Source: a virus. From it: a stretch of 33,236 nucleotides of DNA. Below, one piece after another: positions 598 through 18,594 of the stretch. The DNA is taken from positions 1 through 33,236 of the IMG/VR virus record IMGVR_UViG_3300000553_000167; one strand, written 5' to 3'. The number at the start of each line of letters is the position of its first letter. The first letter of the stretch is position 1. The translations under genes were made by a program, and so were the position numbers. Under the pieces are notes generated by a model that searched no databases, was not told the DNA's origin, and was given only the letters and a program-made list of their open reading frames with translations.

Positions 598-771
598 ATG
601 GGATGGTACTTGTTTTTCCCGCTGTTTATTTTGTTGGTAATTGGCGGTGTTCCTGTGGGAAAATTTGATCTTGTTTTATGGAAAATTACTACCATCGAAA
701 ATCCGCTTGGGATGAGTATTATTTTGTATCTTGTTCTATATCCCACCTACTGTTATTTTAGGAAGACTTGA
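598..771 (+). CDS. Small two-helix membrane protein, opposite strand
   Basis: A 57-residue protein reads against the late operon. ATG 598 is preceded by AGGGGT seven bases upstream, whereas the earlier in-frame ATG at 574 overlaps the putative -10 box. Two hydrophobic segments are seen at about residues 3-19 and 37-51, with a short loop between and a basic C terminus (FRKT). Its last 14 bases overlap the end of the large convergent gene at 758. It has its own promoter candidate, so it may be a moron expressed from the prophage, for example in exclusion or membrane defence; that function is inference. No family is recognised, and it could still be a chance ORF. Confidence 0.4.
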   Translation: MGWYLFFPLFILLVIGGVPVGKFDLVLWKITTIENPLGMSIILYLVLYPTYCYFRKT

Positions 772-3700
772 GTGCCTTTAGTTTAGGTTGAATGGTTTTT
801 AGTTCATCGGGCGTAGCGGTTTGCATCCAATTATTGATCTTTTTAACTAGGGTTTCTTTAATTTGTGCTTTTTCCTGTGGGTTGGCTACTTTGTAAACGT
901 CTAACGCCTCATCAAGTTTAAGGTCTTTAAACTGATTGACAATAGGTGGATTAGTATCGGTTAATCGTTTCGTTAGTTCTTCCGGCTTAATAAGTCCTTT
1001 TGCCATTTCCTCTTTCGCAATGGAATTGTAATCAGGGCTTTTTGATTTATAGGCCAATACTATTCTTTGCATAGATTGATTTTTATCAAATTCAGACTGG
1101 GTTTTAAGTTGTGGCATGCGCCGTTGCAAAAACTCTGACGCCATTTCCTGCGCTGCTGTTTTGTTGATTGAACCAGGTGCCGGAGTAATGCCGATAAAGT
1201 TTTGTAGTTTTATTCCTAGTGGTTGATCTTTTTGTTGCTCCATTCCTCTGAAAGAAAACGGGATTAAAGACTTTGCTGCATGGCCGGCAAGTTTCTCTAA
1301 AACATTATCTCCCTGGTGCCAAATTTCCGTTCCATAAAAGTCTTTGTTGTTCAGCATTTCGCCGATAGTAGCTAACATAGGATGAAGTTTATTTGAAATA
1401 GTTTGCTTCGGATCGTTGTAATAGTGGTAAACGTCTTTCATGTAGGACGGCATAGAAATTCGTTGCGGATCTCCGTTTTTATCAAATTGACCATTTTTAG
1501 GGAAGAAATAATCTTTTAGTTCAGATGGACCTTTACCGGTTATCATATATTGATACATTGCTCCCAAGGTTCCAACAGTCAACGGCAAAGCCACGGCATA
1601 TCCGGCTCGGTATCCGCTTTCAGGAGTCTTTAATTTTCCGGCTGATGCCGCAATGTCTTTAATCCCGCCGCCAAGCTCCAAGAATGTACCTTCATTCCAC
1701 CCGACAGAACGAACCGTAACCATTGATAAATCTTTAGCGGTCTTGTTCCAAAACTGGTTGTCGTAAGTCATTTGACCCATTCTGTTGTCAACGGATTGCC
1801 AAGCCTTTTGAAGTACCTTTCTAGCTATTTCGGGATGACTCAACAGATCAGGTCTTTTTTCAAGTTCATATTCAACCATTTTAGCGTAAATACCGAGTTT
1901 TTGCCGAGGAACTAGATGCTCTAAAACCGCTACCGAAGGAAGTTCGAAAACTGCGCCAGGTATCCGGCGAACAACTCCCATTACGTCTTTGCTGCGCCAT
2001 GCCCTTTGGATATTATCAATCGTGCCGGTATGATAGACCTTATCCATCGTTACGCGACCGCCACCAAGTTCTAAGGCTTTCTTTTGCCATCCTCCCGCCT
2101 CTACCCCTTTAAGGAAAGTATTTCCTCTAAAAGGATTAATAGCGGCTTCTACTGGTGCGCCAACAATATCAAGAACACCTTTACCCACCATTTTAGGGTT
2201 AGCGGTTTTAATCCCTTGTCCAATTCGCATTGTTCCAATACCGACAGAAGACACCATGGCGTCAAGAGTAGTAAAACCAGCATGAAAAGCTGAAATACCA
2301 AGTTGAAATTGATTTAAGTGGTTTGCGGCATCTCGCATGAGTCTATACCCTGAGTGTCCAGATAACCCCTTGCCAAGCATGTTATTATATAATCTTGCAA
2401 CTTCCGGTTCGGCGTACCACATAGAATTACCGCCTAGCCGGTCAACAATAGGAATCCAGCCTTCTGGAACCGGATCGCCTCGTTTTATTTTTCCCATTAC
2501 TCCAAGTTGGCTAAAATCTGTTGCTGCTTCATTTGCTGCAATAAACTTTAATTTATTGGCATGGTCTTTCAGAAATAAATCTACCGGATGCGCTCCCGAT
2601 GGTTCTAGACCAATTTCTCTGCCAGTTTTAAAATCAGGAACAACACGTTCCTGCAAAAAACCAGTGTTGCCCTGCAATGGTGTCTGCGTACTTCTCCACC
2701 TGGCTATAATTTCGTTGTTTTTTAGCGTATCTTTCCATATTCCGGTTTGAGTGAAATAATTATCTATCCCGACATCAAAACCCATATTTTTTAGTTTTTC
2801 GACTCGCTGATTATCTACGGTTCCCATAGTATCCGCAATTTTTTGTAATATGGGAGAAGATTGCTTTTCGCCGGATTGAATCTTATCAATAAAATCATAT
2901 TGCCCTTCGGTTCCAAGTCTATCGAGTTCATGACTACCTTCTTTGAGGGATTTCCCAAGAGTATAAATACTATTAGCTGTTTCTGCCATGCCTTGTTTGA
3001 GTATTTCAGCGGCACGATTACCTGTTTCTCCTTGTACAGGGTCAAAAGCATTTCTTACGGATTGAAATGTATCAGATAATGCTTTGGGAACAGATAGATT
3101 TTTAGACAATTCTAATGTTTCTGCTTGTGTAATGGGAAGTTTCATCGTGCCTTGTTCGCTAGGAAGTAACTCGCTTATATTAGAAAATTGTTTAATAGGT
3201 TCAGCATTCGCAAGCGTATCTACCGCTGATGGTTGTTCTGCTACTGATTGTCTAACCTGCTGAAGAATATCATCAGGGGAAGGTTGCGCCATGGGTTTTC
3301 CTTGTTCTATTGTTGGAATTTCTTCAGCTATTTTAGTATCAAGTTTTCCTTTTGCTATTTCTGTGCCACGACGAAGACCTTTCACCGGCAAAGCAACCTG
3401 CCCGACGGCCATTGCCGCATTTGCTAATGTTCTGGCCGGATTTGCAGCAAACTTTTGCGCCAGTTCGGGGTCTTTAGCTATATCAACGGCAGGCCCATAG
3501 GTTGCCTGTCGTAGCCCTTCACCAACACCGCTTTTGTTGTACCCCTCTGCAAATTGTAGTGCGTACATAGCGGGAATGGCAATTGCGGGCGCAGCAATAG
3601 TTCCAGCGATCATAGCCGGTTGAGTAAGAGACTCACCTAATTGTGAGGTTGCCTTATTTGCTAAAGCTGTTTGGTAATCAAGATCATTTTGAGATATTCC

Positions 3701-3991
3701 TGGTTTTGGAACAAAGTTCATGTCCTTGTCAAAGTCGCCCATTTGAATAGTAGCGTCAAATTGCTTTTTATATTCTTTAGCCGCAGTAAATGGAGCGACA
3801 ACCATGTCTTTTATCGCGGTTGCAACATCGGGGATTATTTTTGATAGCCAATCTCCAGAAGATCCTAAAGTACTAATATCACTGGTAGGAACTTGTGAAT
3901 TATCTTGTCTGACATTTTGCAAAATTGCATTGGGGTCAATCGTGCTTGCGCGGACCCCTTGTAAAAGATCGTAAGGATTCGGTTCAGGCAT
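758..3991 (-). CDS. Very large virion protein, probable ejection protein
   Basis: This 1077-residue protein starts at ATG 3991, seven bases after GGGGG, rather than at the adjacent TTG. The N-terminal 60 residues are polar with repeated short motifs of the form D(I/L)LQxVR, which recur near residues 9-15, 23-29 and 242-248. Hydrophobic glycine/alanine-rich segments lie near residues 127-150 and 190-205. The long C-terminal half resembles the large podovirus proteins that carry polyvalent-protein C-terminal domains, with a conserved-looking run around YGTEIWHQGD near residue 920. Its size, last position in the structural cluster and membrane-active segments fit an internal virion protein injected with the DNA. 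The precise role is inferred. Confidence 0.6.
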   Translation of the reverse strand: MPEPNPYDLLQGVRASTIDPNAILQNVRQDNSQVPTSDISTLGSSGDWLSKIIPDVATAIKDMVVAPFTAAKEYKKQFDATIQMGDFDKDMNFVPKPGISQNDLDYQTALANKATSQLGESLTQPAMIAGTIAAPAIAIPAMYALQFAEGYNKSGVGEGLRQATYGPAVDIAKDPELAQKFAANPARTLANAAMAVGQVALPVKGLRRGTEIAKGKLDTKIAEEIPTIEQGKPMAQPSPDDILQQVRQSVAEQPSAVDTLANAEPIKQFSNISELLPSEQGTMKLPITQAETLELSKNLSVPKALSDTFQSVRNAFDPVQGETGNRAAEILKQGMAETANSIYTLGKSLKEGSHELDRLGTEGQYDFIDKIQSGEKQSSPILQKIADTMGTVDNQRVEKLKNMGFDVGIDNYFTQTGIWKDTLKNNEIIARWRSTQTPLQGNTGFLQERVVPDFKTGREIGLEPSGAHPVDLFLKDHANKLKFIAANEAATDFSQLGVMGKIKRGDPVPEGWIPIVDRLGGNSMWYAEPEVARLYNNMLGKGLSGHSGYRLMRDAANHLNQFQLGISAFHAGFTTLDAMVSSVGIGTMRIGQGIKTANPKMVGKGVLDIVGAPVEAAINPFRGNTFLKGVEAGGWQKKALELGGGRVTMDKVYHTGTIDNIQRAWRSKDVMGVVRRIPGAVFELPSVAVLEHLVPRQKLGIYAKMVEYELEKRPDLLSHPEIARKVLQKAWQSVDNRMGQMTYDNQFWNKTAKDLSMVTVRSVGWNEGTFLELGGGIKDIAASAGKLKTPESGYRAGYAVALPLTVGTLGAMYQYMITGKGPSELKDYFFPKNGQFDKNGDPQRISMPSYMKDVYHYYNDPKQTISNKLHPMLATIGEMLNNKDFYGTEIWHQGDNVLEKLAGHAAKSLIPFSFRGMEQQKDQPLGIKLQNFIGITPAPGSINKTAAQEMASEFLQRRMPQLKTQSEFDKNQSMQRIVLAYKSKSPDYNSIAKEEMAKGLIKPEELTKRLTDTNPPIVNQFKDLKLDEALDVYKVANPQEKAQIKETLVKKINNWMQTATPDELKTIQPKLKALKSS

Positions 3992-4002
3992 CAAAAAACC
4001 CC

Positions 4003-5292
4003 CTAATCCATAGTATAGTGCGTGGCTAAAAAGTCCCTAGCATCTTGATCGTTCATTCCGTGTTCATTGCGTAAAGTATAATAAATCTTGTTGTATTCAT
4101 CGCCACTGTTTAATTTGAGAGGTGCGGCAACGGCGGCTTGGTCTTTTGCAGTTTGCTCGGTTACGTTAGAATAGGGAGTTTGTTCTTGTCCACTCCCCTG
4201 CTTTACTGTTGGCTGTCCGACTCTTTGGTCTTGCCATTGTTTAGATTCGAGATACCCTTTATAATCGGGATAACTTGTCGGGTCCACGGGGATAGGATTA
4301 AAATTTGCATCTAGTCTAGGTTTTTGTGATTTTAACCACGAATTATATGCATTAATTCTGTTTTGGTGGATTTTTGCAATTTGAGGATCTTCTTTAGTTG
4401 CAGTGTTTCTTGCTGCCTCTCTCGCCTGTTGTCCCGCAAGAGTCTGATCTTGTCCTCGCATAGCCACATCAGCCGTTAACTGATGTTCCGCGCTTATACC
4501 CTTGACAATCTTACTGCCGATAGGGACAAGTTTGCTGCCATCTTCGTTGTGCGCGTAGTACTGGATTCCGTCGCCCGTGTCTACTTTGTCGATAGACATT
4601 TTGTTTTCAGCCAAAAGGTCTTTGATTGCTGCTATATCGACCGGAGGTTTTCCAACTTGCGTCAATCCCCTATTAACCTGCATAATGGTTTTTAGCGCAG
4701 CAGAGCGATTGTCCGCGACTGACAAGTCTTTACCAATTACTTCATCAAGTTTCGGGTAAAGAGAATTGGCGTATTGATTCGCCGCGACGTTGTAATCCTG
4801 CTCAATCCGCTTATTTAGTTCCCCGTCGACAGCCGCCGCTGCCTGTGCATAAGTCATACCCCTTTGGCTTGTCAATTGTTTGATTGCGTCTGCGCGCATA
4901 GACTTGTATTGGCCGATTAAATCGGTTTTTACAGGTGCCTGCTGCTCTGGTTTATTTACTACTGGTTGCGTAACAGGAGCGGGAGAAAAAGACAAAGACG
5001 GCTCAGGTGCTTTATATCCTGTGGATAGATCAGGAGCCTGAAAATCATAGTTAGGCGTATTTTGCGGGAAAAACCCTTGTGAAGTTACAGGAACAATTGG
5101 CGCAATGTTAGGTTGAACCGTTTGCGGGGATTGAACTGGCTGTTGCTGAACTTGTTGCGTTCCGAGGTTTGACAGTGTATCGGCAATACCAGCCTGGTTA
5201 CGCATAGCCGCACTTCTGCCCAACAATCCCCCGATAACAGCCGCTATTCCTGCATATGGGTTGTCGGCCGGCCGTACAATTTGAATTGACAT
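4003..5292 (-). CDS. Structural protein, probable internal virion protein
   Basis: This is a 429-residue protein whose ATG overlaps the TAA of the preceding gene (TAATG). The N terminus has a glycine/alanine-rich segment (about residues 13-30), then a long Gln/Pro/Val-rich low-complexity stretch to about residue 115. The rest is mostly helical and charged, with Gln- and Ala-rich runs. Such composition is common in podovirus ejection proteins and tail-needle-associated proteins. It sits between the Hint-domain protein and the 1077-residue protein, and the three probably act together in the capsid or at injection. I recognise no named family. Confidence 0.5.
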   Translation of the reverse strand: MSIQIVRPADNPYAGIAAVIGGLLGRSAAMRNQAGIADTLSNLGTQQVQQQPVQSPQTVQPNIAPIVPVTSQGFFPQNTPNYDFQAPDLSTGYKAPEPSLSFSPAPVTQPVVNKPEQQAPVKTDLIGQYKSMRADAIKQLTSQRGMTYAQAAAAVDGELNKRIEQDYNVAANQYANSLYPKLDEVIGKDLSVADNRSAALKTIMQVNRGLTQVGKPPVDIAAIKDLLAENKMSIDKVDTGDGIQYYAHNEDGSKLVPIGSKIVKGISAEHQLTADVAMRGQDQTLAGQQAREAARNTATKEDPQIAKIHQNRINAYNSWLKSQKPRLDANFNPIPVDPTSYPDYKGYLESKQWQDQRVGQPTVKQGSGQEQTPYSNVTEQTAKDQAAVAAPLKLNSGDEYNKIYYTLRNEHGMNDQDARDFLATHYTMD

Positions 5293-6374
5293 TATCCAAG
5301 CCCCCTCACCAAGAAGCTATTAGCATAGTAACTATTCGTTCCGGTAGTTTTAAGATAATATACTTCCATGGACCCCGCAGGCTCTACAGAGATATTTTGC
5401 ATCCCTTCGGTAGTCAATACCTCTTGGCCGTCTAAATCTGCAGGAACAACACTCCCTGTACCTGTAACAAAGGGTTGCGTAGCTGTGGCGAATACTGCTC
5501 TTTGGTTCGTTGCAATGGTGAAACATTCTTTCGTTTCAGGAATGGCGATTTCGAGAACAGTTTCCCATAGACCAAGATATTTATCAGCAAAAACTTTATC
5601 GCCAACTGAAATATCTTCGATAGGCCTTTCTCCTGTTTCGGTAATAACAAAAGTTCCTTTAGCCAAACAAGAACCGGTTTGAATCTTTGCCGCTCCCAGC
5701 GAACCAACGGCACTTAGCAATCCACCATTACTAGGCTGAACTGCAATGTCAGGCTTAGATGCAATCCTCTGTTGAGCCATTGCTTGCCAAAGATTATTGG
5801 TATCAGCTTGTTGACCGGAAGCAAGTCCCAGCAGTTTCCCGGGAATATCGATAGAAGCGTTTTGTGCGGCGTTTTGCAATTCCATCGGCATACTAAGCAA
5901 GCCCCGTTGCTGTTCAATACTTGCCGATTGAGCATTGAGGTCGTTGTTATAGTTTGCGGTGAGTGCCTGGTTGACTCCTTGGCCGATGTTGTAGAACGAT
6001 TGTCCTGTAGGCGAACTGCCAAGAACACCCCTAGACATAAGATCATTAACAGCATTACCCATCGTTCCGGTTAATTGCTGGTTCATAATTTCTCGTTCGT
6101 TGGCAAGTCTATTTGGGTCTACTACTCCTGCTCCTACTTGCGCTGCCTGCCGTTGGAGGTCTTGCGCCCCTGCCGTTGCCGTTCCTGCCATTTGGGTATA
6201 ATCCACAGGAACAATTCCAGGATTGTCAAGAAGCATATTCGCGCCTCTTTGTTGTAATGCTAATGCAGTGGGAGCCGTTTTCTCAGCGAAATTGGCCTGA
6301 ACATCCTGCAATCTGGTTTCTTCCGGCGTCGGAGGTGCCGGTTGCGATGTGTAAGTAGAACCTTTTCCTCCCAA
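5292..6374 (-). CDS. Virion protein with C-terminal Hint (intein-like) domain
   Basis: The 360-residue protein begins at a TTG preceded by AGGGGGTG. Residues 1-230 are Gln/Ala/Asn-rich and helical, like an internal virion protein. From Cys236 to the C terminus is a Hint fold: GSCLAKGTFVITETGERPIE opens block A, IEDISVGDKV follows, block B contains TATQPFVT (297-304), then VPADLDGQEVLT, and the end reads SYYANSFLVRGLG. In Hint proteins Cys1 makes a thioester with the preceding residue. The usual block B His is Gln300 here, and the usual terminal His-Asn is Arg-Gly, so full splicing is not expected. N-terminal cleavage, transfer to a nucleophile, or loss of activity are all possible. Confidence 0.75.
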   Translation of the reverse strand: MGGKGSTYTSQPAPPTPEETRLQDVQANFAEKTAPTALALQQRGANMLLDNPGIVPVDYTQMAGTATAGAQDLQRQAAQVGAGVVDPNRLANEREIMNQQLTGTMGNAVNDLMSRGVLGSSPTGQSFYNIGQGVNQALTANYNNDLNAQSASIEQQRGLLSMPMELQNAAQNASIDIPGKLLGLASGQQADTNNLWQAMAQQRIASKPDIAVQPSNGGLLSAVGSLGAAKIQTGSCLAKGTFVITETGERPIEDISVGDKVFADKYLGLWETVLEIAIPETKECFTIATNQRAVFATATQPFVTGTGSVVPADLDGQEVLTTEGMQNISVEPAGSMEVYYLKTTGTNSYYANSFLVRGLG

Positions 6375-6736: not shown

Positions 6737-7435
6737 TTAACTAGCCACCTCAGTTATTGTAATGGAGGATATAAGCGCGCCTCCCAAAAATCGATTTCCG
6801 GAAGTGCCATTAAATGTTAACGTACCAGCGTTGTTTCCTCCCGCTCTTACCTTAAATGTTGTTAGGCTTGTTGTTCCCGCTGTCATTTCATAGCGAACTA
6901 TTATGTTTTTTGGCCCTCCACCTATCGAGTCGTAATGCCATGATGATGCAAGAGCATTTGCTGTAGAATCCTGAAAAAGACAAACCATTATAACGGCAAT
7001 TACCGAATATGTCCCGTTTAAAATTACATCTATTATCAATTTATTTGTTGCACTTTTAGGCGTGATCGCGACCGACATAAATTGCGTTCCCTCGGAACTT
7101 TGAGGGATTGTATCGTCAAAGGGGATTAGCGTAGTTCCTGAAGAAACTGCTCCGGTTTGATAATTTACGACTTGTACTATGCTGCCTGATTTTACTGCCG
7201 GGTCTAATTTTGCTAACGTTACTGCGCCATCAGTAATTTTAGAAGTCGTTACAGAATTATCGGAAATTACAACTACCGCACCATCATTACCATTGCCAGT
7301 GTGAGCGTGACCGTCACTTTTCATTAAATTATTGACATCGGTATAAATCTTTTTTGTCTCATTATCGAGATTATGCAACACTTCTTGGGTCTGCTGATTC
7401 ACACTAAACGAATTCGGATATCCTTGCGCTAACAT
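6737..7435 (-). CDS. Tail fibre or receptor-binding protein, paralogue 2
   Basis: This 232-residue protein starts with ATG overlapping the previous TAA (TAATG). Residues 1-75 closely match the N terminus of the neighbouring fibre (QQTQEVLHNLDNETKKIYTD, then DGHAHTGNGNDGA), followed by short repeats of the form ADGAVTxxKL typical of fibre shafts. The C-terminal 130 residues are beta-rich and unlike its neighbour's, ending in a jelly-roll-like domain with several Gly/Thr/Ser strands. The shared head is likely the virion-anchoring part and the unshared end the receptor-binding part. The arrangement suggests duplication followed by exchange of tips. Confidence 0.7.
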   Translation of the reverse strand: MLAQGYPNSFSVNQQTQEVLHNLDNETKKIYTDVNNLMKSDGHAHTGNGNDGAVVVISDNSVTTSKITDGAVTLAKLDPAVKSGSIVQVVNYQTGAVSSGTTLIPFDDTIPQSSEGTQFMSVAITPKSATNKLIIDVILNGTYSVIAVIMVCLFQDSTANALASSWHYDSIGGGPKNIIVRYEMTAGTTSLTTFKVRAGGNNAGTLTFNGTSGNRFLGGALISSITITEVAS

Positions 7436-8160
7436 TAGGAAATCCTCTTAATAAAGTATATTCCATAATATGGGGGCATGTTATTATGCGCTTGGCTGCT
7501 ACCAGATGAAGACGTTAACCCAACATTTGCAACTGATCCATCACCTTGAATAGAATATCTTTCTGCCGCTCCGGCAAGTGCATCACGAATAGGATAATTA
7601 CTATTAGATAAATTTGATCCATAAGTTCCGCTTACCGCATCCGAATTAAATGAAAAATGCTGATGAGTTCCGTTTTCCGCAGGCGTTAATGCATGTGTCG
7701 TTTCTCCGCCTGTAGCACCTTGTGCATATGACCCCCCTGCTGCAATCGGCATGCGGTTTGTCATAGGCGTGTGAACAACCCAATTGGTATTGGGAACGCC
7801 ACCAATAACAGGATTTAAACCTGAAAAAGTTCCTTCAAACATCACAATGCTGCCAATAGGAACTAACGCTCCTGGAGGAATTACCGCAGAAGAGTCAAGT
7901 TTTGCTAGTGTGACAGAAGCATCATGTAGTTTATCGGCTGTAACGGCTCCATCGGCAATTTTAGCAGTAATTACCGCATTATCTGCTATTGCTACTAAAG
8001 CACCGTCATTACCGTTCCCAGTGTGAGCATGTCCGTCTGCGGCCATCAGCGTATTGACATCGGTATAAATTTTTTTAGTTTCATTATCCAGGTTGTGCAG
8101 TACTTCTTGCGTCTGCTGAACATTGCTGAATGTGTTCGGGAATCCTTGCGAAAGACTCAT
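7435..8160 (-). CDS. Tail fibre with collar-like C-terminal domain, paralogue 1
   Basis: This 241-residue protein has a GGGAGG-type ribosome site before the ATG. It has the same N-terminal anchor as its neighbour (residues 1-60), two shaft repeats (DGAVTADKLHDASVTLAKLD), then a domain with IGSIVMFEG, THALTPAENGTHQHFSF and a terminal HNNMPPYYGIYFIKRI. These His-rich and NMPPY features are the pattern of phage tail-collar domains at fibre tips, which often bind metal in a trimer. It likely contacts the host surface. It follows directly after the nozzle candidate, consistent with fibres attached to a short tail. Confidence 0.75.
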   Translation of the reverse strand: MSLSQGFPNTFSNVQQTQEVLHNLDNETKKIYTDVNTLMAADGHAHTGNGNDGALVAIADNAVITAKIADGAVTADKLHDASVTLAKLDSSAVIPPGALVPIGSIVMFEGTFSGLNPVIGGVPNTNWVVHTPMTNRMPIAAGGSYAQGATGGETTHALTPAENGTHQHFSFNSDAVSGTYGSNLSNSNYPIRDALAGAAERYSIQGDGSVANVGLTSSSGSSQAHNNMPPYYGIYFIKRIS

Positions 8161-13814: not shown

Positions 13815-14759
13815 TTAGCTTACTATCAGAGACTTAATGCGAAAGCCGGCCAGCGGGTTGAGCGCAAACATGCCGAACTCCCAAGTGACGTACTTCTCGA
13901 TCTTGTGCGCCGGCTGATTGCCGGACTCGCCCGATTTGGTTTTGGCTTCAAAGTTTTGCAGGAAACCTTTTTTCCAATACCGAGTATCGATCGCGTAGAA
14001 GTCAGTAGTCGGGGCTTGCCGGTCAATCTTGATCGCCAGGTCGCCGCAGGAAGTTTTGTAGATGTCAACAATTGAGCCAACTTCCGTGCTGTCTTTAGTA
14101 TCCATGCGAATTTTTCCACCAACAAAGTCATCGATCTGTTGTTTCATAACCGAAGAGCTATAACCTTGGAGTTGGTCAAATTCGTGGATGTCGTAAACCT
14201 TCTGTAGCCCGGTCAAGATATAAGCCTCAGTGATTTTCTTCGACAGTCCGTCAACGATATTGGTGTTGGCAAGCTGAGCATTGTTCGAAACGAACCAATA
14301 CGGTAACCCGCCGCAGACACCGGCAGTACCTTCAGCGTGCTTGACAGCCGTGGAGTTTTCAAACAGGGACTTATTGGCGTTACGCCGCATGCTGATTCCT
14401 GCCTGAACCATGCGCTTGTTGATGTCGGTATAGGTGTTGGATTTCTTGGCGACTGCTTCTTCGGTGGTGGTGATCATATACCCTTTGTCCTGCAACTGGG
14501 TATAGTTTTTGATTCTGGTCGGCAGGGCATGGCCGTCAACAGAAACAGCAGCACCTTCGGCAACGGTGTTGATAACCGGAGTTTCGAGCGATTCAACAGC
14601 CCAGGAATACTCGATGTTTTTGATGTCATCGCCTTCGCCAAGATCGCTGAACAACGGGGTTGATTTCGGGGTCGTGTTGAGAATAATTTGATGAAAATCT
14701 TCGGGGTTGACTGGTGCGCTATCAGCTGCATACGCATTTTCTACGCCAGTACGTGCCAT
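13815..14759 (-). CDS. Major capsid protein, SU10-type (DUF5309-like)
   Basis: The 314-residue protein starts at ATG 14759 after GAGGTG. It begins with MARTGVENAYAADSAPVNPE, has LNTTPKSTPLFSDLGEG near residue 27, IEYSWAVESLETP, and a long helix around IDDFVGGKI. This pattern and length match the SU10 major capsid protein family (HK97 fold). The scaffold gene is directly upstream and the hairpin that follows fits heavy expression. Many copies form the icosahedral head. Confidence 0.85.
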   Translation of the reverse strand: MARTGVENAYAADSAPVNPEDFHQIILNTTPKSTPLFSDLGEGDDIKNIEYSWAVESLETPVINTVAEGAAVSVDGHALPTRIKNYTQLQDKGYMITTTEEAVAKKSNTYTDINKRMVQAGISMRRNANKSLFENSTAVKHAEGTAGVCGGLPYWFVSNNAQLANTNIVDGLSKKITEAYILTGLQKVYDIHEFDQLQGYSSSVMKQQIDDFVGGKIRMDTKDSTEVGSIVDIYKTSCGDLAIKIDRQAPTTDFYAIDTRYWKKGFLQNFEAKTKSGESGNQPAHKIEKYVTWEFGMFALNPLAGFRIKSLIVS

Positions 14760-16298: not shown

Positions 16299-16541
16299 TT
16301 AAAGATCCTTCTTCGCCTGCGCTTCCTTCTCCAAGTCTCGAATGCTACGTTTACTCATAGTGACATCGCCCTGCAGCTTCTTCTCGATCATGTCAAGCGC
16401 GATAAATTGGTAGTGTGCTGAAACTGCTTTGTCAGGGCTTTCAGCCACTAAATGGATTAGGTGGGCCTTGATTTCTCTCACTATATCCTGGAGGTATACC
16501 TGCACCTGTGGGGCTAGGTTGAGCCGTTCCAACTTGTCCAT
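16299..16541 (-). CDS. 80-residue protein overlapping portal 3' end
   Basis: ATG 16541 sits inside the portal gene, five bases after a perfect AGGAGG. The first 33 codons overlap the portal C terminus in another frame, and the protein continues about 140 bases beyond the portal stop. It is helical and charged (VQVYLQDIVREIKAHLIHLV, DMIEKKLQGDVTMSKRSIRD), with a basic-acidic end (EKEAQAKKDL), which suggests a coiled-coil head protein. The strong ribosome site makes it a likely real gene. Confidence 0.6.
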   Translation of the reverse strand: MDKLERLNLAPQVQVYLQDIVREIKAHLIHLVAESPDKAVSAHYQFIALDMIEKKLQGDVTMSKRSIRDLEKEAQAKKDL

Positions 16542-18594
16542 TTTGTCCTCCTGCTAATGTCTGAATATCTGCGCGGGTTACGTGTGGCGGGTTAAGATGA
16601 TGCACTAAAATGTCTTTCCCTGCTGCATGAATGGCTTTTTGTTCTTCTTTGGTCTGGTTGACAGCTAAATCGGTTTGAATAGTCTGCTCGAAGTCCTGCG
16701 GCGTTGCCTGGATTCCGGACTTAGCAAGAATCTGTATCTTCACACTGACAGGCAAGGTTGCGAAGTCGATTCGCAAGGACTCGCTGACAGGCTGAACCGG
16801 CGGTTGTTCTTGCATCGGCTCCTTGATATAGTCATCAGTATTTTTGATGCCAATCAGTTCAAGCATCTTTTTCTGTGCGTTATAGGCGTTCTTCTTGTCA
16901 GCCAGACCGGCCGCGATGAGAGTAGGCATGGAAGCCACAACGCCTTGCATATTCTGCACATCTTCTTGACGCACGCCTGCACCCAAACCTGCGTTGACGA
17001 TGTAGTTAAATTCTCCGGATAAGTTGTCTTTGTTGACTACCATGTCTTTGCCGGTCAGTCTAACTACTTGCTCATCGTCACTATACTTTTGGTTAAGAAA
17101 AATCATTCGCATGAATAGAGATTTCATGCCAGTCTCAGACATGTTACGAAGAATTAGGCCCATTGCCTTGCTACCCATGTTAGCGAGTAGCTTCATGCCG
17201 CCGAAAGTCTTTGTAGCCGTGTCTGGATCTGTACCCTGCGATATGCGGGATACCATACTTGCTTCTTCGCCCCAGCCTTTGACTATTTCGATGAGGTTTA
17301 GAGTGTACGAAGCTAAAGGAATCTGCGCCACGGGTTGCATTGCATCTTGTGTGGAGCCGTTGACGTCGATAAACTGCTCCCCGTCTAATACTTGGTTAAA
17401 ATCAGAGAAAGCAGCCGTACTGCACAACATCTGCGGATTGTTATTGATTGCAAGGTTCTCGACCGTCAACCGAATGATCGCCGTAAGTAAATCCTGCCAC
17501 TGTCCAAGAGCGTCCATGCCGGAGGTATACGGTACCACTCGAAACGGGTCAAACACGGGACTGATCATGCAGAAGGGGAAGCCGTCTTCGTTTTCCTCGT
17601 ACCGAATAAAGACGTTGCCCTCTTCGGCTACTGTAACAATGCAATCCTCTAACATCTTATCGCCGTTGATGTCGGCTTTGACAAAACACTCTGTTATCCA
17701 TACCTTGCGGTTCGGATCGTCAATATCATAGCTGGTGTCATCGTAATAACCTTGCCTGGTTGTGTCCATGTTGATATTATCGGTTGCCTGCGTAGTGCTG
17801 GAACCATTGGCCGCCAACTGCATAACAGCGGCTTTGTCATACATGCCAGTATATGTACCGTCTTTTTGCTTAGTCTTGATGTTGCGAACGAGGTAATCAA
17901 TGGTTACGGCTTTACGCCGGCCTACAAGCTCACAGTCATGAAATGTTTTACTCCCAGGAGTCCAGATAAGTTCTTCAGTTGGCACATTCTCAATAAGCGG
18001 ATAATTGTGCGTCAATTTCATGTATTTGATTGTGACGTTAGTAACGGGTTGCCCCTTTGCATCTTGCCCAGGCGTACCTGCATCAACAATATCGACGTTA
18101 TTGGCCTTTGCTGCGTCCATGAAGGCTTGCTCCTGTCCTAGTGGCACCGGAACTACTTCTTCTTTTTCCTCATATTCCCGCTTTTGCGTCACCATCACAA
18201 CAGAGTAAAGCTGATAGAGACTTTCTTTAACCCACCAGTAGAACTTTTGATAGCCAACGTTAGGATATTCTATTTGCCAGTTGCAATACTCTTGCATGAT
18301 CTCAGCATTATTATCATTTTCAGCCTTGCGCCCTTTGACTGAGCCAATGTCCGAAGAACCAAAGATACGCTCCATGACTTCTGCCGTCATACGCTCAACA
18401 GCCGACATAACAGATGTGTCCGCAAAGTCATATTTTAGATTCTGATACTTTGCAGCGTAAAACTCTTTGTCGGCATGGAAGCGTTGTAACCGCTCCTTAT
18501 CGCGTGGCGATATTTGCAGCAGTTTATGCTGTTTTGCTCGCTCAATCTTGGCGAGGACTTGCGTCTCTATTTTGTCTCGGTTAAGTTTAGCCAT
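16441..18594 (-). CDS. Portal protein
   Basis: The 717-residue protein begins at ATG 18594, overlapping the terminase stop by one base (TAATG). It has the helical N terminus and wing/stem of portal proteins: residues 60-75 (SVMSAVERMTAEVMERIFG), a central region with VVPYTSGMDALGQWQDLLTA followed by VENLAINNNPQML, and a Pro/Gln-rich C-terminal tail. It forms the dodecameric DNA channel at one vertex of the head. Position between terminase and scaffold and the size (P22 portal is 725) support the call. Confidence 0.85.
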   Translation of the reverse strand: MAKLNRDKIETQVLAKIERAKQHKLLQISPRDKERLQRFHADKEFYAAKYQNLKYDFADTSVMSAVERMTAEVMERIFGSSDIGSVKGRKAENDNNAEIMQEYCNWQIEYPNVGYQKFYWWVKESLYQLYSVVMVTQKREYEEKEEVVPVPLGQEQAFMDAAKANNVDIVDAGTPGQDAKGQPVTNVTIKYMKLTHNYPLIENVPTEELIWTPGSKTFHDCELVGRRKAVTIDYLVRNIKTKQKDGTYTGMYDKAAVMQLAANGSSTTQATDNINMDTTRQGYYDDTSYDIDDPNRKVWITECFVKADINGDKMLEDCIVTVAEEGNVFIRYEENEDGFPFCMISPVFDPFRVVPYTSGMDALGQWQDLLTAIIRLTVENLAINNNPQMLCSTAAFSDFNQVLDGEQFIDVNGSTQDAMQPVAQIPLASYTLNLIEIVKGWGEEASMVSRISQGTDPDTATKTFGGMKLLANMGSKAMGLILRNMSETGMKSLFMRMIFLNQKYSDDEQVVRLTGKDMVVNKDNLSGEFNYIVNAGLGAGVRQEDVQNMQGVVASMPTLIAAGLADKKNAYNAQKKMLELIGIKNTDDYIKEPMQEQPPVQPVSESLRIDFATLPVSVKIQILAKSGIQATPQDFEQTIQTDLAVNQTKEEQKAIHAAGKDILVHHLNPPHVTRADIQTLAGGQNGQVGTAQPSPTGAGIPPGYSERNQGPPNPFSG

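Follow-up and report, generated by a model that had tools for sequence, protein, structure and literature searches.

Why does a phage protein end in a Hint (intein-like) domain whose catalytic residues have been exchanged, and could such a domain still act on the protein that carries it? The case comes from a virus record of IMG/VR, 33,236 bases long, the whole of which is called the window here. The record has genes for an SU10-type portal protein (16441..18594, minus strand) and an SU10-type major capsid protein (13815..14759, minus strand), the latter of which served as the query for close relatives. The protein in question is the product of a 360-aa ORF (5292-6374, minus strand), composed of a helical Gly/Ala/Asn/Gln-rich N-part (aa 1-235, 5670..6374) and a C-terminal Hint domain (aa 236-360, 5295..5669). 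The gene starts with TTG, 6 nt downstream of a AGGGGGTGA-like ribosome site, and its stop codon overlaps with the start of the next gene at TAATG. The N-part has the motif LTGTMGN...LMSRGVLGSS and a Gly-rich end.

The next gene encodes a 429-aa protein (4003..5292, minus strand), which is probably a second internal virion protein as judged from its position and a weak sequence match in the locus L309. The position of the following 1078-aa gene (758..3994, minus strand) suggests that its product is probably a large internal virion protein; relatives have proteins of about 1700-2700 aa at this place, several of them cut by the ends of the stretch. In several of the prophage regions that were read, the Hint-bearing protein comes after a homologue of the window's 482-aa product and is followed by a protein of about 420-760 aa and then by a very large one. 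A stretch of one such very large gene (L308:14402-20000) matches phage DNA methyltransferase profiles (phrog_6263, 8.9e-14), and its product is perhaps an injected DNA-modifying protein. Elsewhere in the window, a 232-aa probable tail fibre protein (6737-7435, minus strand) ends in a domain that matches the Pgp3 C-terminal domain (PF05475, E 1.6e-7, above the Pfam cut-off; the Pfam name refers to Chlamydia), and the product of the adjoining gene (7435-8160) is related to it in sequence.

Is the N-part that of an ejection-type virion protein, as the first-pass annotation had it? Gene order and composition agree with this assignment, and the 360-aa protein is probably carried in the particle of a short-tailed phage. 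On the other hand, homology to the ejection protein family phrog_4287 was not found: its profile matched neither the window protein nor three related N-parts, and profile-profile comparison (hhalign) gave a probability below 1% with 6 against 5 sequences and with 20 against up to 7. Six ejection-type proteins of SU10-portal reference phages were compared with Pfam; three of them (L007, L009, and L010) end in a Peptidase_S74 domain, and the others (L005, L006, and L012) have no such C-terminal domain by Pfam. Peptidase_S74 is a self-cleaving chaperone. At the end of the phrog_4287/6121 proteins of phiM5, DB2, and pCB2047-A, it is a C-terminal module of a protein encoded among the structural genes of SU10-portal phages, and the phiM5 protein is recorded as detected in phage particles. 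However, Peptidase_S74 is unrelated to the window's Hint domain, and N-part homology was not found between the two protein sets. Thus, the S74-ended ejection proteins offer a possible analogy to the Hint-ended protein, a parallel in position only.

The presence of a Hint domain at the end of the protein was borne out by Pfam, PDB, and profile searches as well as by an AlphaFold2 model. The span first proposed for it, 5292-5669, is exactly the domain plus the stop codon, because the codon of Cys236 lies at 5667-5669; the domain itself runs over 125 residues from Cys236 to Gly360. It matches Pfam Hint_2 (PF13403) with E=5.9e-5, but at 23.9 bits it lies below the cut-off of 28.4, which the homologue L224 exceeds (32.4). 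A phmmer search of the PDB with the window domain found the bacterial intein-like (BIL) domain 2lwy (E=6e-4), and a profile made from five homologues matched the gp41-1 intein (2e-9) and 2lwy, a Clostridium BIL domain (1e-7), over nearly the full length. The AlphaFold2 model of residues 228-360 has the Hint fold with a pLDDT of 92.6. It superposes on the gp41-1 intein (6qaz and 6riz) with Z scores of 21.0-21.5 (rmsd 1.2 over 122 residues for the fit at 21.5), on the Ssp DnaB M86 G-1F/H73A intein (6fre) with 20.2, on the Hedgehog Hint domain (1at0) with 17.5, and on the BIL domain with 17.4. Since the alignment behind the model contained eleven Hint rows with a TxxH block B and five rows of the Q-type described below, the predicted fold is not independent of homology. 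The model of the full-length protein is poor (mean pLDDT 40), and the helices of the N-part are predicted with low confidence.

The window domain thus combines the predicted Hint fold with a Cys/Ser nucleophile at position 1, both of which characterize the HINT superfamily. In block B, it has TATQ in place of TxxH, a motif that is common but not universal in the superfamily (PMC7664689, partial text). Using the motif names of PMC4031507 (partial text), Cys236 is Cys1, Thr297 (codon 5484..5486) is the block B Thr (B:7), Gln300 (5475..5477) occupies the block B His position (B:10), Tyr340 (5355..5357) the block F Asp position (F:4), and Arg357-Gly358 (5301..5306) the position of the terminal His-Asn (G:6 and G:7). 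The first-pass reading of Cys1, of block B (TATQPFVT, with Gln for His), and of the domain end (YYANSFLVRGLG, with Arg-Gly and no His-Asn) was correct letter by letter. It had also called the altered domain unusual on a podovirus ejection-type protein. The residues are indeed altered, but the pattern is not peculiar to one phage and defines a clade of C-terminal Hint domains.

Domains of the same type as the window copy are called Q-type here. Among 36 non-redundant Q-type domains, Cys1 is kept in 35 and the block B Thr in all; B:10 is Gln in 33 and Glu in 3, never His, and the terminal Asn position is Gly in 35. F:4 is Asp in 31 of the 36 and Tyr in the window copy only, F:13 is Asn in 24 and Asp in 9 (F:4 and F:13 were placed by alignment and are less sure than the other positions), and the G:6 His position holds Arg, Glu, Lys, or Gln. 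The 43 other Hint domains have His at B:10 in 42 cases, the terminal Asn in 39, and Asn at F:4 in 39. A smaller count gave the same picture, with Cys1 and Thr B:7 in 23 of 23 Q-type domains, Gln in 20 and Glu in 3, and the terminal Gly in 22, against His in 36 and Asn in 36 of 37 other Hints. A bulky residue precedes Cys1 (position -1) in 15 of 23 Q-type rows versus 3 of 36 controls, a comparison that serves as a guide only, the rows being related; this residue is Met in L218 and Phe in L283 and L329, and the window copy has Ser there.

Partial domains and domains with large inserts were left out of these counts (those whose profile match began beyond 5-8, stopped short of 105-115, or spanned at least 175 residues), so endonuclease-bearing inteins are under-represented among the controls. 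Also outside the counts are L227 (truncated by its contig end behind Cys1), L219 (truncated ahead of any Hint), and L364, a Q-type domain found later. The controls were fetched mostly by block A or N-part patterns, which leave block B and the domain end free; thus their TxxH and His-Asn counts are unselected. The Q-type rows were found with profiles from Q-type sequences, and therefore their number is no census; the phylum-wide genome sample given below is in agreement.

Is the histidine-free pattern a local quirk? In a tree of 69 domains, a branch with support 97/95, found in 98% of bootstrap trees, separates the 27 Q-type rows from the rest. By this sequence comparison, the pattern is a clade feature rather than a local quirk, and the Q-type domains form one clade, which in the samples analysed comprises only Negativicutes and their phages. 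The window domain is 37-40% identical to its four nearest phage domains and sits on a long branch (1.57). One natural copy lacks the nucleophile: a Nif11-Hint relative (L347:1589-2521, minus strand) has Tyr for Cys1 and keeps TATQ and the terminal Gly.

How do the closest known Hint systems compare? The B-type BIL domains share with the Q-type the Hint fold, Cys1, and the absence of the intein-type C-terminal His-Asn, but those described keep the other intein motifs, so that only the C-terminal motif is missing (PMC7765530, partial text), whereas the Q-type has Gln/Glu for the block B His, an x-Gly end, and a position at the end of the protein. A-type BIL domains have a conserved C-terminal His-Asn where the window copy has Arg-Gly. 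A class 1 intein has a terminal Asn (or Gln/Asp) and a C-extein with a nucleophile at +1; the window copy has Gly358, two residues, and a stop codon. The gp41-1 mini-intein has the same fold, but natural inteins splice with a His-Asn and a C-extein, neither of which the window copy has. The Ssp DnaB mutant of 6fre, also of the same fold, lacks the block B His and has a bulky residue at -1. The Hedgehog Hint domain is similar in fold and in being a C-terminal module that acts on its N-part through Cys1. In contrast, it has TxxH and is followed in Hog proteins by a sterol-recognition region; the window domain has neither, and its protein ends two residues past Gly358. As for the Pfam families PT-HINT and Hint_2, some clade members exceed the cut-offs (L224 for Hint_2, host proteins for one or the other), while the window copy is below them; the other Hints found have TxxH and His-Asn in the proportions given above.

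Where do Q-type domains occur? The major capsid protein scan led to close relatives of the phage, and their homologues of the 360-aa protein led to more. One homologue lies in Sporomusa silvacetica DSM 10669 (prophage locus L251); thus, a Negativicute is the probable host of the phage. Of 380 Negativicutes genomes searched, 51 gave matches. Across the phylum, 9 of 398 sampled genomes had a match at E<=1e-6; the 4 Q-type genomes all belong to the Negativicutes search set and the 5 TxxH genomes lie outside it. Since canonical TxxH Hint or intein-type domains also occur in Negativicutes genomes (L342, L344, L345, and L346), host class alone does not account for the Q-type pattern. A Q-type Hint is found at the end of Nif11-leader proteins (L317:8541-9338, L318:245-970, L319:8833-9699, and L321:8913-9677; the leader is above the Pfam cut-off in L319 and L321, just below it in L318, and assigned by likeness only in L317), of a giant 3386-aa protein (L326:14-10174), of a different ejection-like protein (L314), and of a 305-aa protein (L312) whose gene lies close to that of a phage primase. 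The host copies, on Nif11-leader and giant proteins, are nested in phage copies in the tree (98/88 and 97/86), which would fit a transfer from phage to host, the root of the tree being uncertain.

The Hint domain behaves as a separable module. Among 20 N-parts compared, 15 have a Hint domain and 5 do not; the Hint-free proteins stand at two places in the N-part tree, which needs at least two changes. The Hint-free homologues stop at about the point where the Hint domain would start, in a Gly-rich hydrophobic tail: the Hint-free L360 ends in SGGGLLGGLFGGLF-stop, and the Hint-bearing L329 has SGGGGGFFSGLLGGIGSGLGGALF before Cys1, with a tail ending ...SGLLGGIGSGLGGALF-Cys. At the other end, the protein continues for a median of 8 residues past the terminal Gly in the 36 Q-type domains and of 113 past the Asn position in 42 TxxH domains. 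C-terminal cleavage would therefore release next to nothing, and its loss is costless. The dN/dS of the Hint part is 0.05-0.20 in six of seven pairs, the seventh being saturated, and the domain is thus, by these estimates, under purifying selection in the pairs measured. In two of the relatives (L219:16787-17698 and L227:7605-8675), both cut by contig ends, the N-part of this family is repeat-expanded.

How may these features be read together? I favour, at a little short of even chances, the view that this is an ejection-type virion protein whose C-terminal Hint domain is detachable and would be cut off at Cys1 by thioester chemistry. Cys236 would attack the preceding peptide bond (N-S acyl shift), and the thioester would then be hydrolysed or thiolysed, freeing the Hint domain. 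The N-part would be left with its Gly-rich tail as the end, which is the natural end of the Hint-free homologues. Splicing and C-terminal cleavage would have been given up, the terminal Asn having become Gly with almost nothing after it. The first-pass conclusion that the domain does not splice holds: the terminal Asn is absent and two residues follow Gly358 before the stop codon, and therefore there is no C-extein. The chemistry left to the Q-type domains would be that of Cys1, Thr B:7, and mostly Asp F:4. Cys1 and Thr B:7 have been kept while B:10, G:6, G:7, and mostly F:13 have changed, which argues against decay, where Cys1 would drift. The cleavage itself, its timing (at assembly or ejection), and the location in the virion are inferred.

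The lost histidines at B:10, G:6, and mostly F:13 would perhaps be offset by the Gln at B:10 and, in many members, by the bulky -1 residue. In the Ssp DnaB intein, the block B His is required with Gly at -1, but the H73A mutant regains its N-S acyl shift when the -1 side chain is large (PMC6333167, partial text). Some inteins work without the block B His (PMC7664689 and PMC7765530, partial texts), and B-type BIL domains, which have no C-terminal motif, cleave N-terminally (PMC7765530, partial text). By analogy, compensation for the lost block B His is chemically possible. The bulky -1 residues may merely continue the hydrophobic Gly-rich tail. The Ser at -1, the Tyr at F:4, and the long branch of the window copy mean that this copy possibly reacts more slowly or not at all, even should the clade be active. 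The Tyr at Cys1 of L347, the need for the block B His in Hedgehog (PMC9163320, partial text), and the failure to find homology of the N-part to known ejection proteins speak against the favoured reading.

A serious rival, although on the doubtful side, is a Hint domain that does not cleave and serves as a structural cap, folding aid, or docking domain; the protein would stay full-length, with Cys1 and Thr kept for packing. The changes at the catalytic His positions and the terminal Asn fit this, as do the inactivity of the Hedgehog block B mutant H329A, for which that His is required (PMC9163320, partial text), the missing F:4 Asp of the window copy, and the loss of Cys1 in one member; purifying selection fits a structural role equally well. 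However, Cys1 and Thr297 are among the most conserved columns despite the low identity to the nearest phage domains, and the change at B:10 is specific (Gln or Glu only) rather than random.

An improbable third reading is a ligase-type Hint, by which the Cys1 thioester would be passed to an amine or hydroxyl of a virion protein, an envelope component, or a lipid, and the N-part would become covalently attached in a Hedgehog-like manner. The Hedgehog Hint domain does only the first step before cholesterol attachment (PMC7664689, partial text), most Q-type domains keep the F:4 Asp, the N-part has a hydrophobic Gly-rich tail at its end, and the giant protein and the Nif11-leader proteins are other carriers. 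Against this, the few residues after the domain leave no acceptor-binding region, no acceptor is known, and the window copy is without the F:4 Asp. Lastly, a decaying remnant of an ordinary intein that had entered a phage gene at its end would agree with the sequence relation to phage inteins and BIL domains, but is contradicted by the residue pattern common to 36 domains and by a dN/dS well below 1; with the Q-type rows forming one clade and canonical TxxH domains present in the same class of genomes, it retains hardly any probability.

Does self-release at Cys1, the favoured reading, extend beyond this protein? A wider proposal from the same sequences, also on the doubtful side, is that the Q-type represents a histidine-free class of Hint chemistry (Cys1, T-x-x-Q, mostly F:4 Asp, terminal Gly) acting at the N-terminal bond only, with which phages of Negativicutes would trim or attach an injected protein, and that the hosts of these phages have the same module on Nif11-leader proteins and a giant protein. 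The Hint fold and this kind of module are already known. Hint cleavage without the block B His has been described in rare inteins (Tko CDC21-1) and in engineered mutants (PMC7765530 and PMC6333167, partial texts). Among the papers listed by searches of the open-licence PubMed Central literature, no report was found of a Hint domain on a phage ejection protein, of Nif11-Hint proteins, or of a conserved histidine-free pattern on C-terminal modules of phages and hosts; this is no proof of absence from print. If active, the Q-type would provide a natural, repeatedly occurring example of Hint domains that cleave in the absence of the block B His, and of a Hint module acting in a protein of the phage particle. 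If inactive, the Hint fold would be kept as a structural part with its nucleophile still conserved, which itself needs explanation. The terminal position of the domain, without a C-extein, makes it a simple single-reaction system for assay.

This phage lineage was tracked by the major capsid protein and not by the terminase. Viral contig scans with the full-length 360-aa protein or with the portal protein alone found no relatives; the terminase scan gave 78 loci, and no Hint was found when the records from which 29 of them came, along with 10 reference phages, were searched with a Hint_2 profile. With the Hint profile as the query, 31 loci were obtained from viral contigs; among the eight that were read, L364 is a new Q-type domain and the other seven are not. 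The matches in reference phages were no homologues of the N-part; they were inteins, scattered Hint matches, and internal-Hint proteins of Vibrio siphophages. In the last of these (L002:3167-5290 and L004:3148-5274), the Hint domain lies inside a protein encoded just after a portal-type gene. In the Mycobacterium phages Cane17, Blubba, ET08, Gizmo, and Colt, a Hint-like match was found within the annotated portal protein.
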